NCBI GenBank assembly: GCA_027315365.1
Contig: DAHUYF010000202.1
Location: forward strand, 1-33,682
Direction: 5' to 3'
Origin: Rhodospirillales bacterium
GTDB lineage: Bacteria > Pseudomonadota > Alphaproteobacteria > ATCC43930 > CGMCC-115725
DNA length: 33,682 nt
Shown here: positions 16,628 to 22,384 of the stretch, piece after piece
Position numbering within the stretch: position 1 is the stretch's first letter
Layout of the letters: each line of letters begins with the position of its first letter
Translations under genes and position numbers: made by a program
The notes under the pieces: generated by a model
Databases searched by the model: none
What the model was told of the DNA's origin: nothing
What the model saw: only the letters and a program-made list of their open reading frames with translations

Positions 16628-17062
16628 ATGGATACGAAGACTGCCGGCAGGCCGGCTGCGTCCGTCATCGGCACGGGCCGGATGCTGCACACCATGCTCC
16701 GCGTCTTCGATCTCGCGAAATCGCTCGACTTCTACTCGCGGCTGCTGGGCATGCAGGTGCTGCGCCGGCGCGAAGTGCCGGAAGGGCGCTACACGCTGGC
16801 CTTCGTCGGCTACGGCGCCGAGGAGAGCAGCACGGTGATCGAGCTCACGCATAATTGGGACCAGAAGGAGCCCTATGCGCTCGGCACCGCCTTCGGCCAT
16901 CTCGCCATCGGCGTCGGCGACGTCTACGCTGTCTGCGACACGCTCGCCAAAGCGGGGGTGAAGATCACGCGGCCGCCCGGCCCGGTGAAGTTCGGCACCA
17001 CGGTGATCGCCTTCATCGAGGACCCCGACGGCTACAAGATCGAGTTGATCCAGCGTGACTAA
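16628..17062 (+). CDS. gloA: Lactoylglutathione lyase (glyoxalase I, VOC fold)
   Basis: A 144-residue VOC-fold enzyme that isomerises the methylglyoxal-glutathione hemithioacetal. The four metal ligands expected for glyoxalase I are present: His21 (RMLHTMLRV), Glu72 (STVIELTHNW), His91 (AFGHLAIGV) and Glu139 (GYKIELIQ), spaced as in the E. coli enzyme with a 16-17 residue N-terminal extension. The ribosome site AAAGGAG is strong. It overlaps the following hydratase-like gene by 8 bases. No signal peptide, so cytosolic. The call is firm from the motifs. Confidence 0.93.
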   Translation: MDTKTAGRPAASVIGTGRMLHTMLRVFDLAKSLDFYSRLLGMQVLRRREVPEGRYTLAFVGYGAEESSTVIELTHNWDQKEPYALGTAFGHLAIGVGDVYAVCDTLAKAGVKITRPPGPVKFGTTVIAFIEDPDGYKIELIQRD

Positions 17063-17861
17063 GACCGCAACCGGGCCGCGCCTTCTGCTCGGCATCGAAG
17101 AGCGCGGCGCCGCCGGCCGCGTCGCGCGGCTCGCCGTCGACCATCCCGGCAAGCTCAACATCCTGACGCGCGGGCTGATCGAGGAACTCGCGGAAATGGT
17201 CGAAGGGCTCGCCGGCGATGGGGGCTTGCGCGCCCTGGTGCTGACGGGGGCGGGGGAGCGCGCCTTCATCGGCGGCGCCGACATCCGCGACATGGCGGCG
17301 CTCGACGGCGCCGGCGCCGCGCCCTTCATCACCGCGCTGCACCGCGCCTGCGACGCGCTGCGCCGCCTGCCGGTGCCGGTGATCGCCCGCATCCACGGCT
17401 ATGCGCTCGGCGCCGGGCTCGAGATTGCCGCCGCCTGCGACCTGCGCATCGCCAGCGAGCATGCGCGCTTCGGCATGCCCGAGGTCAAGGTCGGCATCCC
17501 TTCGGTGATCGAGGCGGCGCTGCTGCCGAGCCTGATCGGCTGGGGCCGCACGCGCCGGCTGCTGCTTACCGCCGAGACCATCGATGCGCGTCGGGCGGAG
17601 CGATGGGGCCTCGTCGAATGGTGCGTGCCGGCAGCCCAGCTCGATGCCGCGGTGGGCGAGTTGCTCGATGCCATCCTGGCCTGCGGCGCCAACGCGATCC
17701 GGCTGCAGAAGGCGCTGATCCGCGAGTGGGAGGAGCTGCCGATGGCGCAGGCGATCGCACGCGGCATCGACAGCTTTGCCGCGGCCTTCGCCGGCGACGA
17801 ACCGCAGCGGATGATGGGCACTTTCCTGGCCAAGGCGGCGGCGCGGAAGAAGGCGCGCTGA
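17055..17861 (+). CDS. Enoyl-CoA hydratase/isomerase family protein
   Basis: A crotonase-fold protein of 268 residues, starting at GTG 17055 within the end of the glyoxalase gene. The oxyanion-hole segments are present (AFIGGADIRDM and HGYALGAGLEIAAACD). Two glutamates at the positions of the hydratase acid/base pair are also present, in GLEIAAACD and FGMPEVKVG. The usual GTIPGAGGTQ-like loop is replaced by a GIPSVIEAALLPSL loop, which marks a subfamily not typical of fatty-acid beta-oxidation. The substrate is therefore unclear; an acyl-CoA from aromatic or branched-acid breakdown is possible. Its neighbours downstream are catabolic, which fits that view but does not prove it. Confidence 0.85.
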   Translation: MTKTATGPRLLLGIEERGAAGRVARLAVDHPGKLNILTRGLIEELAEMVEGLAGDGGLRALVLTGAGERAFIGGADIRDMAALDGAGAAPFITALHRACDALRRLPVPVIARIHGYALGAGLEIAAACDLRIASEHARFGMPEVKVGIPSVIEAALLPSLIGWGRTRRLLLTAETIDARRAERWGLVEWCVPAAQLDAAVGELLDAILACGANAIRLQKALIREWEELPMAQAIARGIDSFAAAFAGDEPQRMMGTFLAKAAARKKAR

Positions 17862-17897: not shown

Positions 17898-18818
17898 ATG
17901 CGCCCGCTCAGCGTTGCCCTCGCCGGCTCCGGCCTCACCAAGCCGCTCAAGGAAGGCGCCGTGGATTGCGGCCGGCCGCTCGATTTCGTCCCGATCGAGC
18001 AGATCGTGCCGCAGATGCGGCGCATGGTGCGGACGCTGGATTTCGATATCTGCGAGATGGCGTTCACGACTTATCTCTGCGCGCGCGCCGCGGGCAAGCC
18101 GATCACCGCCATCCCGGTCTTCGTCACGCGCAATTTTCATCACCGGGCGGCGTTCCAGCATGTGGGAGCGGGGCTGGCGTCGCCGCGGGATCTCGAAGGC
18201 CGCGTCGTCGCCGTCAATCGCGGCTACACCGTCACGACCGGGCTTTGGGTGCGCGGCATCCTCGCCTCGGAGTACGGCGTCGATCTGCGCAAGGTGACCT
18301 GGGCGCCGACCGATGACGAGCATGTCCAGGAATACCAGGCGCCGGCCAACGTCACCTACCGCTTTCGCGGCCGGCCGGTGGCCGAGCTGCTGCTCGCGGG
18401 CGAGGCTGTCGCCGCGGTGGGCGATGTCCGCACCGATGCCGCGGCGATCAAGCCGCTCATCGCCGACGCCGAGGCGGCCGGCTTCGCCTGGTACCGCAAG
18501 ACCGGGATCTATCCCATCAATCATACCGTCGTGGTGAAGGACGAGGTGCTGGCCACCGAACCCGGCCTCGCCCGCGCCCTGATGGCGGGCTTCGCCGCCG
18601 CCAAAGCAGCCTATCTGGCGCAGCTTGACGCCGCCGGCGATCTCGGGCCCGCCGACGAGGCGGTCCGCGCCCGGCGCGCCGTGGTCGGCGATCCCTTCCC
18701 CTTCGGCGTCGCGGCGAACCGGCCCGCGCTGGAAGCGATCATCAGCTACGCCGTCGAGCAGCAGGTGATCCCGACGGCGCTGCGCCCGGAGCAGCTCTTC
18801 GCGCGGAGCGCGCTCTAG
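17898..18818 (+). CDS. 4,5-dihydroxyphthalate decarboxylase-like (Pht5 family) protein
   Basis: A 306-residue protein of the periplasmic-binding-protein-2 fold without a signal peptide. Motifs recalled from Pht5-type proteins are seen: FDICEMAFTTYL, the IPVFVTRNFHHRA stretch, a VWIRGILxxEYGV-like block (here LWVRGILASEYGV), YRKTGIYPINHTVVV, and the C-terminal PFPFGVAANRPALE...LRPEQLF. Pht5 removes a carboxyl group from 4,5-dihydroxyphthalate to give protocatechuate. Many relatives are untested, and some may be binding proteins; the missing export signal favours an enzyme. It lies 36 bases after the hydratase-like gene with a GAAAGGA ribosome site. Its stop overlaps the stop of the opposing LigJ gene in one CTAG. 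Confidence 0.7.
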   Translation: MRPLSVALAGSGLTKPLKEGAVDCGRPLDFVPIEQIVPQMRRMVRTLDFDICEMAFTTYLCARAAGKPITAIPVFVTRNFHHRAAFQHVGAGLASPRDLEGRVVAVNRGYTVTTGLWVRGILASEYGVDLRKVTWAPTDDEHVQEYQAPANVTYRFRGRPVAELLLAGEAVAAVGDVRTDAAAIKPLIADAEAAGFAWYRKTGIYPINHTVVVKDEVLATEPGLARALMAGFAAAKAAYLAQLDAAGDLGPADEAVRARRAVVGDPFPFGVAANRPALEAIISYAVEQQVIPTALRPEQLFARSAL

Positions 18819-19843
18819 GCGAATGCCGTGCGGCCAGTCGCCTGGAGGCGGCTGAACACCCGCCGGGCGTTGCCTTCGAAGATCTGCTGCCGTTCTTCGG
18901 CGCCGAGCCAGGACACCGCCTCGATATAGCGCTTGGTGTCGTCGTAAGGCTGGCCGGTTTCGGGATCGATGCCGCGCACGGCGCCGACCATCTCCGAGGC
19001 GAAGAGGATGTTCTCGACCGGTATCACCCGCGTCAGCAGCTCGATCCCGGGCAGGTGATAGACGCAGGTGTCGAAGAACACGTTCTTGAGCAGCAGCTCC
19101 GGCAGCGGCGCCTTTTTCATGTCCTGCGCCAGGCCGCGATAGCGGCCCCAATGATAGGGCACTGCGCCGCCGCCATGCGGGATGATGAATTTGAGCGTCG
19201 GGAAGTCCTTGAACAGGTCCGAGGTCAGGAACTGCATGAAGGCGGTCGTGTCGCCATTGATGTAGTGCGCGCCGGTGAAGTGGAAGGCGGGATTGCAGGA
19301 GGCGCTGACATGGACCATCGCCGGCACGTCGAGCTCCGCCATCTTCTCGTAGAGCGGATACCACCAGCGGTCGGTCAGCGGCGGATCGGTCCAGTAGCCG
19401 CCCGAGGGGTCGGGATTGAGGTTGCATCCGACGAAGCCGAGTTCCGTGATGCAGCGCTCGAGCTCGCCGATGCAGTTGGCCGGCGGCACCCCGGGCGATT
19501 GCGGCAGCTGGCAGACCCCGGCGAAGTTCCTGGGATAGAGCGTGCAGACGCGATGGACGAGATCGTTGCAGTGCTCGGACCAATGCTGGCTGGCGGTAGC
19601 GTCGCCGATGTGGTGGGACATGCCCGAGGCGCGCGGCGAGAAGATGGTGAGGTCGGTGCCGCGCTCGCGCTGCAGCCTGAGCTGCGTGTTCTCCAGGCTG
19701 TCGCGAATCTCGTCGTCGCTGATCGCGAGCGTCCCCTTGGCCGGGGCATGAGATTTGTCCGAGAGGGCGGCGATCTGGCGCTTGCGCCACCCCTCCAGCG
19801 CCTTCGGCGCGGTGGTGTAGTGCCCGTGGCAGTCGATGATCAT
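18815..19843 (-). CDS. ligJ: 4-oxalomesaconate hydratase
   Basis: A metal-dependent amidohydrolase-superfamily hydratase, 342 residues. It adds water to 4-oxalomesaconate in the protocatechuate 4,5-cleavage pathway, giving 4-carboxy-4-hydroxy-2-oxoadipate. Numbering matches the metal ligands described for LigJ: His6 and His8 (IDCHGHY), His178 (AMVHVS) and Glu284 (FASEM); His223 lies in IPHGGGAVPYHWGR. Long stretches (NLNPDPSGG, TGAHYINGDTTAFMQ, GAVRGIDPETG, YEDDTKRYIEA-like) are typical of LigJ rather than general amidohydrolases. The ribosome site AGGCCAGGA precedes ATG. It is divergent from the aldolase gene and convergent with the Pht5-like gene. Confidence 0.88.
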   Translation of the reverse strand: MIIDCHGHYTTAPKALEGWRKRQIAALSDKSHAPAKGTLAISDDEIRDSLENTQLRLQRERGTDLTIFSPRASGMSHHIGDATASQHWSEHCNDLVHRVCTLYPRNFAGVCQLPQSPGVPPANCIGELERCITELGFVGCNLNPDPSGGYWTDPPLTDRWWYPLYEKMAELDVPAMVHVSASCNPAFHFTGAHYINGDTTAFMQFLTSDLFKDFPTLKFIIPHGGGAVPYHWGRYRGLAQDMKKAPLPELLLKNVFFDTCVYHLPGIELLTRVIPVENILFASEMVGAVRGIDPETGQPYDDTKRYIEAVSWLGAEERQQIFEGNARRVFSRLQATGRTAFA

Positions 19844-19877
19844 TCCTGGCCTCGCTGAGCTCCGGCGGGAGAGCCGA

Positions 19878-19906
19878 ATGCTACGGAGATGCCGGCGGCC
19901 CGTCCA
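19878..19906 (-). promoter_or_regulatory. Candidate promoter for ligJ
   Basis: On the minus strand: TGGACG (19906-19901), 17 bases, TAGCAT (19883-19878). The start would be near 19871, about 28 bases before the ligJ ATG. The same TAGCAT -10 appears in the opposing promoter for the aldolase. Confidence 0.5.
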
Positions 19907-19917
19907 CCCCGCCGGCG

Positions 19918-19946
19918 CTGAAGACGGTCGGGTTTTGCGCTAGCAT
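19918..19946 (+). promoter_or_regulatory. Candidate promoter for the aldolase gene
   Basis: CTGAAG (19918-19923), 17 bases, TAGCAT (19941-19946), the latter within GCTAGCAT. The -35 is weak (3 of 6). The two -10 boxes of this divergent region are identical and its -35 boxes lie 11 bases apart, leaving room for a shared operator. Confidence 0.4.
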
Positions 19947-19973
19947 GCGCGAAACCGCCGGAGGAAGTGATCC

Positions 19974-20837
19974 ATGGCCGACCTGCCTCGTCTCAATGGT
20001 GTGATCCGCGCGCTGGAGCAGGGCCAGCCGGCTTTCGCCGCCTTCTGCCAGGCCGAGACCGAAGCGGCGCTGGCCATGAGCACGGCCGGATATGACGGCA
20101 TCGTCTTCGAGATGGAGCACAACCCCTGGGACGTGCGCGCGTTGCGCGACAGCCTGCAATACATGCTGAACCGGCGACAGATCGTGCAGTCGGCCTCGCT
20201 CGCCCCGGCGGTGACGCCGATGGTGCGGATCCCGCCCAACGGCAGCGAGAAGAACCAGTGGCTCGCCAAGCAGGCGCTGGATCTCGGCGCCTACGGCGTC
20301 GTCTGGCCGCATGTCAGCACCGCCGACGAGGCCTACAACGCGGTGGCCTCCTGCCGCTATCCGCGGCTCGGGACGGCGCCGCGCCACGAGCCGCAAGGCG
20401 TGCGCGGCGACGGGCCGACCGCGGCCTCGCGCTACTGGGGCCTGACGCAGCAGGAATATTACGCCAAGGCCGATGTCTGGCCGCTCGACCCGAAGGGCGA
20501 GATCGTCGTCATCCTGATGATCGAGGACAGCGCCGGCATCGCCAATCTGCCGGAGATGCTGCGGCGCGTGCCGGGGATCGGCGCCATCCTGATCGGCGAG
20601 GGCGATCTGAGCCAGGAACTGGGCCATCCGCGGCAATACGAACACCCTGAGGTGCTGGCCGCGATGGCCGAGGTGGTGCGGGTTTGCAAGGAGCACAAGG
20701 TACCGGTCGGCCATCCCCATGTCGATGCCGCCAATGCCGGCCGCATCCTCGAGGAGGGCTACCGCTTCCTGATGGCGGCGCCGACGCGCAGCTATGCCGG
20801 GCTCGAGAAGGCGCGGGCGCTTGCCGGGCGGAGCTAG
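19974..20837 (+). CDS. HpcH/HpaI family aldolase
   Basis: A 287-residue (beta/alpha)8 class II pyruvate-aldolase family protein. Visible active-site features: the FEMEHNPWD region (GEH of the HpaI family), arginine in MVRIPPNG, and the metal ligands glutamate in LMIEDSAG and aspartate in GEGDLSQELGHP. The family splits 4-hydroxy-2-oxo acids to pyruvate and an aldehyde or oxo acid. Divergence from ligJ suggests it may act on the LigJ product, a job usually done by the unrelated LigK, but this is inference. The ribosome site is strong (GGAGGAAG). There is no signal peptide. It ends three bases before the stop of the small membrane protein on the other strand (20837 and 20839-20841). Confidence 0.85.
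   Translation: MADLPRLNGVIRALEQGQPAFAAFCQAETEAALAMSTAGYDGIVFEMEHNPWDVRALRDSLQYMLNRRQIVQSASLAPAVTPMVRIPPNGSEKNQWLAKQALDLGAYGVVWPHVSTADEAYNAVASCRYPRLGTAPRHEPQGVRGDGPTAASRYWGLTQQEYYAKADVWPLDPKGEIVVILMIEDSAGIANLPEMLRRVPGIGAILIGEGDLSQELGHPRQYEHPEVLAAMAEVVRVCKEHKVPVGHPHVDAANAGRILEEGYRFLMAAPTRSYAGLEKARALAGRS

Positions 20838-21025: not shown

Positions 21026-21033
<8 letters not shown>
20839..21033 (-). CDS. Small single-span membrane protein, hypothetical
   Basis: A 64-residue frame starting at GTG 21033, overlapping the gltA 3' end by 8 bases. The N-terminal half is basic and polar with a PSRPANDNS stretch, a phrase I recall in small alphaproteobacterial proteins. The C-terminal end is a clear membrane helix ([21 protein letters not shown]), ending one residue later. 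The charge pattern predicts a cytoplasmic N-terminus. It would be co-transcribed with gltA. The frame could be chance in such GC-rich DNA, but the sharp hydrophobic helix and overlap with gltA favour a real gene. Function unknown. Confidence 0.5.

Positions 21034-22384
<1,351 letters not shown>

Follow-up and report, generated by a model that had tools for sequence, protein, structure and literature searches.

Why should the gene of a LigJ-type hydratase lie between those of a Pht5-like protein and an HpcH/HpaI-type aldolase, with none of the other genes of protocatechuate 4,5-cleavage alongside? This question is raised by a stretch of 33,682 nucleotides (the window, meaning the whole of the DNA analysed) from a Rhodospirillales bacterium. 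We propose that the window probably encodes the final two steps of a lower pathway of the lig type, in which the last enzyme has been replaced and the aldolase stands in for LigK. This candidate role of the aldolase is well supported by the comparison of sequences between genomes. The features concerned are the following, ORF denoting an open reading frame and aa amino acids.

17898..18818, plus strand: ORF of the Pht5-like protein, 306 aa; periplasmic-binding fold, sister clade of the solved 4,5-dihydroxyphthalate decarboxylase
18815..19843, minus strand: ORF of LigJ, 4-oxalomesaconate (KCH) hydratase family, 342 aa; PDB and Pfam matches
19844..19973, no strand: divergent intergenic region of 130 bases between the starts of ligJ and the aldolase gene
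19974..20837, plus strand: ORF of the HpcH/HpaI-family class II pyruvate aldolase, 287 aa; Pfam match, proposed LigK stand-in

The original prediction had described these three ORFs as an aromatic-acid mini-cluster. All three exist, with identity scores that rule out chance, and LigJ, as it had been named there, is a very close LigJ by its PDB matches: 2gwg is the best (E 7.5e-162), followed by 6dxq (E 5.8e-148), over the full length (6dxq residues 1-336), and the Pfam match is Amidohydro_2 (3.3e-54). Taken as a single transcription unit, the mini-cluster is not supported. The Pht5-like gene and ligJ are convergent, with stop codons overlapping by four bases, ligJ and the aldolase gene are divergent, and the trio, being spread over both strands, is therefore not one operon. 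Residues H6, H8, H178, H223 and E284, which we take from the LigJ literature to be the metal ligands and catalytic residues, are present in 87 of 87 aligned LigJ-family rows, the window protein and three distant paralogues included. In what follows, G000 is the home genome (4.97 Mb, 99% complete, the window being its contig C97), other G codes are the other genomes examined, L codes are sequence stretches or loci and C codes are contigs; gene calls outside the window come from a simple codon-usage script.

The aldolase passes the Pfam model HpcH_HpaI (97.3 bits, with the cut-off at 25; E 1e-27), and a test for the RraA-like domain of the LigK type was negative. It lies far under the NCBIfam cut-offs of HpaI, GarL and 2-keto-3-deoxy-L-rhamnonate aldolase, with 100.2 bits against 368.8 for the HpaI equivalog TIGR02311 (4-hydroxy-2-oxoheptanedioate aldolase). 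Its AlphaFold model, with a predicted local distance difference test score (pLDDT) of 84, superposes on SwHKA and HpaI-type chains (Z 27-29, 29-32% identity), and the structure matches also list SbnG and macrophomate synthase, two enzymes that use oxaloacetate. With the class II aldolases of this family (HpaI, GarL, YfaU, SwHKA) it has in common the fold, the catalytic His and Arg and the metal Glu and Asp, and indeed H49, R85, E184 and D211 are conserved in 86 of 86 aldolases. It differs from them by E46, which the window protein keeps, in place of Asp42, by M182 for Gln147 in most of its relatives, and by inserted loops carrying R131 and W169 together with a fixed H113 and H249. These basic residues (H113 and H249 in 86/86, R131 in 85/86, H247 in 82/86) have no counterpart in the alignments with HpaI (4b5s) or 4mf4; in the model, H113 comes directly after a strand and H247 stands at a strand end. 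We infer that H113, R131, H247 and H249 may meet extra carboxylates of the substrate.

The linkage between this aldolase and LigJ was evaluated on the best 80 loci of the 366 aldolase relatives scanned in one genome per species, many of the 80 being metagenome-assembled genomes (MAGs) with broken contigs. Adjacency was counted from tblastn matches, with Pfam annotation for one representative per gene cluster and tagging by similarity for the other loci. The 80 loci include Alpha- and Betaproteobacteria, Acidobacteria, Chloroflexi, a Deltaproteobacteria/Myxococcota MAG and Nonomuraea. A LigJ of at least 55% identity lies close by in 48 of them, 45 times within 400 bases and three times further off, and the 45 are distributed over three orders: aldolase then ligJ in the same direction (19), the two divergent (18), and ligJ then aldolase in the same direction (8). 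A LigK-like gene occurs in only one of the 80 loci, and a Pht5-like gene of either clade in 25. The association is also found among 41 genomes (G000 and 40 relatives, seven of them common to the set of 80 loci), of which nine carry both genes, two the aldolase only, two LigJ only and 28 neither (Fisher p 7.7e-6, kinship ignored; thresholds of at least 60% identity for the aldolase and 68% for LigJ). On plasmids, the aldolase is found in 12 of 72,556 at 1e-30, and a relative of the window's Pht5-like protein at 1e-20 in 17, including 11 of those 12. Two MAGs labelled Bordetella parapertussis also carry the aldolase (L084, L134); the labels look doubtful and the bins are apparently environmental.

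Similar gene sets carry one or the other aldolase type at equivalent positions. In the canonical operons of Paraburkholderia caribensis and Diaphorobacter MNS-0, as in Caballeronia, ligJ is directly followed by a LigK or RraA gene, without a further lig gene among the annotated neighbours of the Caballeronia pair, and in Paracoccus methylovorus it is an HpcH-type aldolase gene that comes directly after ligJ, with an 8-base overlap. On plasmids of Phyllobacterium, Rhizobium WYJ-E13 and Sinorhizobium terangae, an RraA gene stands in a row with genes for a Pht5-like protein, LigJ, a zinc-dependent alcohol dehydrogenase (Zn-ADH) and an alpha/beta-hydrolase, the latter two being 63-68% identical to those of the HpcH loci L094 and L115. 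The window thus resembles the lig/pmd system of protocatechuate 4,5-cleavage in its LigJ family and catalytic residues and in the aldolase gene beside ligJ, as ligK is in Diaphorobacter and Paraburkholderia, but its aldolase has the HpcH/HpaI and not the RraA fold, and ligABCI are neither alongside nor found as close copies in the genome.

The LigJ tree is consistent with an exchange of partners. It was built on 87 of 93 extracted rows after removal of identical ones, rows with stops, fewer than 290 residues or less than 38% identity having been dropped earlier; the label HpcH-adjacent extends to 3.6 kb, and L156, whose aldolase is just beyond, was counted in no group. The tree requires five changes of partner label, and well-supported branches alone force three (HpcH label) and two (LigK label). 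One such switch joins L135, an HpcH locus, with the three RraA plasmids at 100/99. No LigJ column divides HpcH- from LigK-adjacent groups at the 80% level, save one based on a single row per group. It appears from these sequences that a hydratase with hardly any change can pair with either aldolase, and it is chiefly on this ground that we consider both aldolases likely to act on the same product. The earlier suggestion of a pyruvate aldolase in LigK's place agrees with the linkage, the exchange and the LigJ tree. The product of LigJ that is cleaved would most likely be 4-carboxy-4-hydroxy-2-oxoadipate (CHA). We propose that the aldolase would split CHA in a metal-dependent retro-aldol reaction into pyruvate and oxaloacetate, both of which would enter the tricarboxylic acid cycle, and that the work of LigK would then be done by an unrelated fold, LigK having the RraA-type alpha-beta-beta-alpha sandwich and the aldolase a TIM barrel. 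In the literature, the 4-hydroxy-4-methyl-2-oxoglutarate (HMG)/CHA aldolase is described as structurally distinct from HpcH/HpaI, and class II pyruvate aldolases as having oxaloacetate decarboxylase activity in common (PMC5065237).

Where, then, would the substrate come from? The absence of LigAB, LigC and LigI from the window, noted in the original prediction, was upheld, as the references LigA, LigB, LigC, LigI and LigK match nothing there. The search of G000 likewise gave no close copy of these five proteins, and a complete second lig operon with its own ligJ and ligK was not found, since there is one LigJ at 1e-40, the window's, and the RraA family (PF03737) has no match at 0.001. LigC has no match in G000 at 1e-30 (7 of the 41 genomes are positive), and the best full-length LigI relative is 37% identical (C101), with a partial match at 42%, compared with 85% in G003. 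For LigAB, only one distant LigA/LigB pair was found, on C144. This pair would be the ring-cleaving enzyme if a normal protocatechuate or gallate 4,5-cleavage pathway were scattered over the genome, with its other genes missed or replaced. We consider such a scattered pathway quite improbable, given the lack of LigC and of a close LigI and the nature of the C144 locus: its LigB matches LigB (1.5e-23) and DesB (2.9e-18) of the PDB weakly and lies under the cut-offs of all ten NCBIfam families listed. This LigAB-like two-subunit dioxygenase (L053) has as neighbours genes for RutB-like hydrolases, for two cupins resembling 3-hydroxyanthranilate dioxygenase and for a Rid protein, to which inspection by eye adds ATP-binding cassette (ABC) uptake genes. 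The locus looks like another ring-cleavage pathway, and in view of the weak matches, the scores under the cut-offs and these neighbours, the pair was not adopted as the partner dioxygenase. The substrate of LigJ in G000 may either come from a route of the Rieske type described below, or have its source hidden by genome gaps.

Split pathways in relatives are in line with a LigK replacement. In G009 and G018, ligC, ligB, ligA and ligI follow one another, and both ligJ and ligK are missing from the 20 kb taken; the sole close LigJ of each genome (71%; others 40-43%) adjoins the HpcH aldolase elsewhere, so that the pair looks like the missing end of the pathway. The RraA family is represented by a single protein in each of the two, with 30-33% identity to the references. 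In G003, of the same genus as the home genome and 79% complete, LigB, LigA, LigI, an RraA protein and LigJ are found on one contig, and an HpcH aldolase was not found at 1e-20.

Several observations weigh against the aldolase as a replacement for LigK. HpcH/HpaI enzymes are known mainly for aldehyde acceptors, and the cleavage of CHA requires a keto acceptor. The search of G000 showed no source of CHA, as close LigAB, LigC and LigI are lacking there. The distant RraA proteins of G001, G002, G009 and G018 could themselves act as CHA aldolases. G016 holds both a LigK-like gene (63%) and the LigJ/aldolase pair, at the single locus of the 80 with a LigK-like gene (L116) this gene accompanies the aldolase, and in G051, G052 and G061 (from 17 LigJ loci read, of 19 genomes) LigJ stands beside LigK with the HpcH gene elsewhere. 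On the LigJ tree, partner labels are clustered, with five changes against 13 on shuffling. Moreover, 32 of the 80 loci have no LigJ in the stretch: 19 of these genomes have one elsewhere at 62-78% identity (one a partial match; in G049 and G062 it lies beside a cut-off aldolase end), two have a 47-48% relative beside the aldolase, one has a 38% relative only, and ten have no LigJ match at all, the completeness of these genomes not being known. In 24 of the 80, the aldolase lies at least 1.3 kb inside the stretch with no close LigJ nearby (one, L133, with the 47% relative). A TctC-type receptor gene family is common to nine of the 32 loci (L076, L080, L101, L132, L134, L140, L142, L147, L148), where the aldolase may serve a transporter-linked route. 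Five of these nine genomes carry a close LigJ elsewhere. Taken together, the LigJ-less loci, the TctC-receptor loci and the ten LigJ-less genomes imply that the aldolase family may have further substrates. The LigJ-less loci would also fit a neighbourhood due to chance, in which the aldolase would serve the breakdown of sugar acids or other 4-hydroxy-2-oxo acids without any link to LigJ; such a coincidence is very improbable, as the two genes adjoin each other in three different orders at 45 of the 80 loci and a further 19 genomes carry LigJ elsewhere.

A last point against our proposal concerns LigJ itself and leads to another explanation. The clearest difference between the HpcH- and LigK-adjacent LigJ groups is R71: all 13 LigK-adjacent rows have this residue, as do 37 of the 51 HpcH-adjacent rows, including that of the window. 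Since it is gone from the other 14, some HpcH-linked LigJs may act on another substrate. It can be hypothesised that LigJ and the aldolase work in sequence on a ring-opened acid other than 4-oxalomesaconate, within an undescribed route starting from a Rieske oxygenase or from a lactone opened by a LigI-like hydrolase, and that a decarboxylation or a double-bond shift along this route is catalysed by the Pht5-like protein. Besides the R71 losses and the canonical 4-oxalomesaconate source not seen in G000, this is suggested by gene sets in which other enzymes take the place of ligABC. A Rieske LigXa_C-type oxygenase, a Zn-ADH, an alpha/beta-hydrolase, a window-clade Pht5-like protein, LigJ and the HpcH aldolase form a complete set in L094, L097 and L135. 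Partial sets occur in L115 (without LigJ), in L119 (with a Pht5-clade protein, not of the window type, and no alpha/beta-hydrolase seen) and in L236 and L237 (without an aldolase in the stretch read), and no extradiol dioxygenase was found among the families tagged in these loci. This Rieske-type gene set is a catabolic route not yet assigned. Two or more Pht5-like genes together with a LigI-like hydrolase are found in L123, L136, L151 and L156. We nevertheless hold the use of another substrate by the window proteins to be unlikely, although not negligible, since the window LigJ keeps all five catalytic positions and R71, no column splits the groups at the 80% level, and the pair of G009 and G018 seems to supply what their canonical ligCBAI set lacks. 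Riboflavin (lumichrome) catabolism gives a precedent for such an end of pathway, with a similar series of hydrolysis, hydration and retro-aldol cleavage to pyruvate by LumW, LumY and LumX; its hydratase LumY is a cupin and not a LigJ (PMC12746152), and a lumichrome-type pathway was rejected as a direct explanation on this ground. Open-licence literature on LigJ with an HpcH or HpaI aldolase yielded no proposal of such an aldolase at the CHA step.

What, finally, is the Pht5-like protein doing in this company? Its only PDB match at 0.001 is 9jp7, the 4,5-dihydroxyphthalate decarboxylase from Comamonas (E 1.2e-30), and its model (pLDDT 95) superposes on 9jp7 with a Z of 36.5 and a root mean square deviation of 1.9 over 300 aligned residues at 31% identity. 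The next chain, the best binding protein, reaches a Z of 18.9, and this difference points to an enzyme-type periplasmic-binding-protein (PBP) fold. A role as transporter binding protein was rejected in view of these two values and of the signal peptide, none being seen by eye. The window protein has the fold of Pht5 over nearly its whole length, with E53, R119 and P149 in common, but R108, T114 and A55, present in 47-48 of 48 window-clade rows, are replaced by P, A and S in 9-10 of 10 Pht5-clade rows. In the midpoint-rooted tree, a 100/100 split with a branch of 0.89 separates the 10 rows with the solved Pht5 from the 48 with the window protein, and orthology with the solved enzyme was rejected on this basis; the second Pht5-like copy of G000 (C73) groups with the solved Pht5. 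The assignment of this protein as a source of protocatechuate is not supported, given its place outside the solved-Pht5 clade and the three near-fixed positions. Eight of the 10 rows of the solved-Pht5 set come from aldolase/LigJ loci, in which the window-type set occurs too. As a separate observation, L156, L155 and L144 show a row of two different Pht5-like proteins, LigJ, a LigI-like hydrolase, a LigB-type dioxygenase and the HpcH aldolase, with a thiamine diphosphate (ThDP) enzyme in L156 and L144.

The published order of steps is 4-oxalomesaconate (OMA) tautomerase (LigU/GalD), KCH hydratase (LigJ/GalB) and CHA aldolase (LigK/GalC) (PMC12314914). The Pht5-like protein could act on the same pool just upstream of LigJ, either by decarboxylation or by a LigU-like isomerisation. 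Going further, we suggest tentatively that the Pht5-like clade, LigJ and the HpcH aldolase might form the core of an undescribed catabolic route spread over several phyla. In this route, the step immediately preceding LigJ would be a new reaction of the Pht5 fold, either a tautomerisation replacing that of LigU or the decarboxylation of a ring-opened acid, while the aldolase would be a non-orthologous enzyme of the CHA type.

Should the replacement of LigK be true, a well-studied step of the lignin pathway has a second, unrelated enzyme for which present annotation has no name. In the annotated plasmid records examined, the aldolase appears as 'aldolase/citrate lyase family protein' and the Pht5-like neighbours mostly as 'ABC transporter substrate-binding protein'. 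Genomes with LigJ but without LigK would no longer seem incomplete, an alternative aldolase would become available for pathway models and for the engineered funnelling of aromatics, and a clade of PBP-fold enzymes would become testable because the chemistry of its neighbour is known.

The region between ligJ and the aldolase gene contains ATGCTA at 19878 and GCTAGCAT at 19939. Among 19 divergent ligJ/aldolase regions, which include related sequences so that the counts are not independent, ATGCTA is found in 14, the window's included (shuffled mean 0.36), and TGTCAAAC in 12, the window's own not among them (shuffled mean 0.01). Before co-directional pairs, the corresponding counts are 1/28 and 0/28. 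Judged by sequence, the shared elements resemble divergent promoters that overlap (TTGACA/TTGTCA with TAGCAT).

The context of the trio in the window is as follows.

16628..17062, plus strand: lactoylglutathione lyase (glyoxalase I)
17055..17861, plus strand: enoyl-CoA hydratase, PRK06143 subfamily, upstream of the Pht5-like gene
21026..22384, minus strand: citrate synthase gltA, convergent with the aldolase gene

The trio had been placed between lpxB and gltA, which is correct as to location, except that the interval from lpxB to the Pht5-like gene also holds the lactoylglutathione lyase and enoyl-CoA hydratase genes. Comparison with relatives shows that the set recurs in the same genus beside the same gltA, with all three genes in the whole order in G001, and LigJ and the aldolase without the Pht5-like gene in G002; it is therefore no private insertion of the home genome. 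In G002 (L057 1066-1082), the enoyl-CoA hydratase gene reaches directly to ligJ, leaving no space for a Pht5-like gene.

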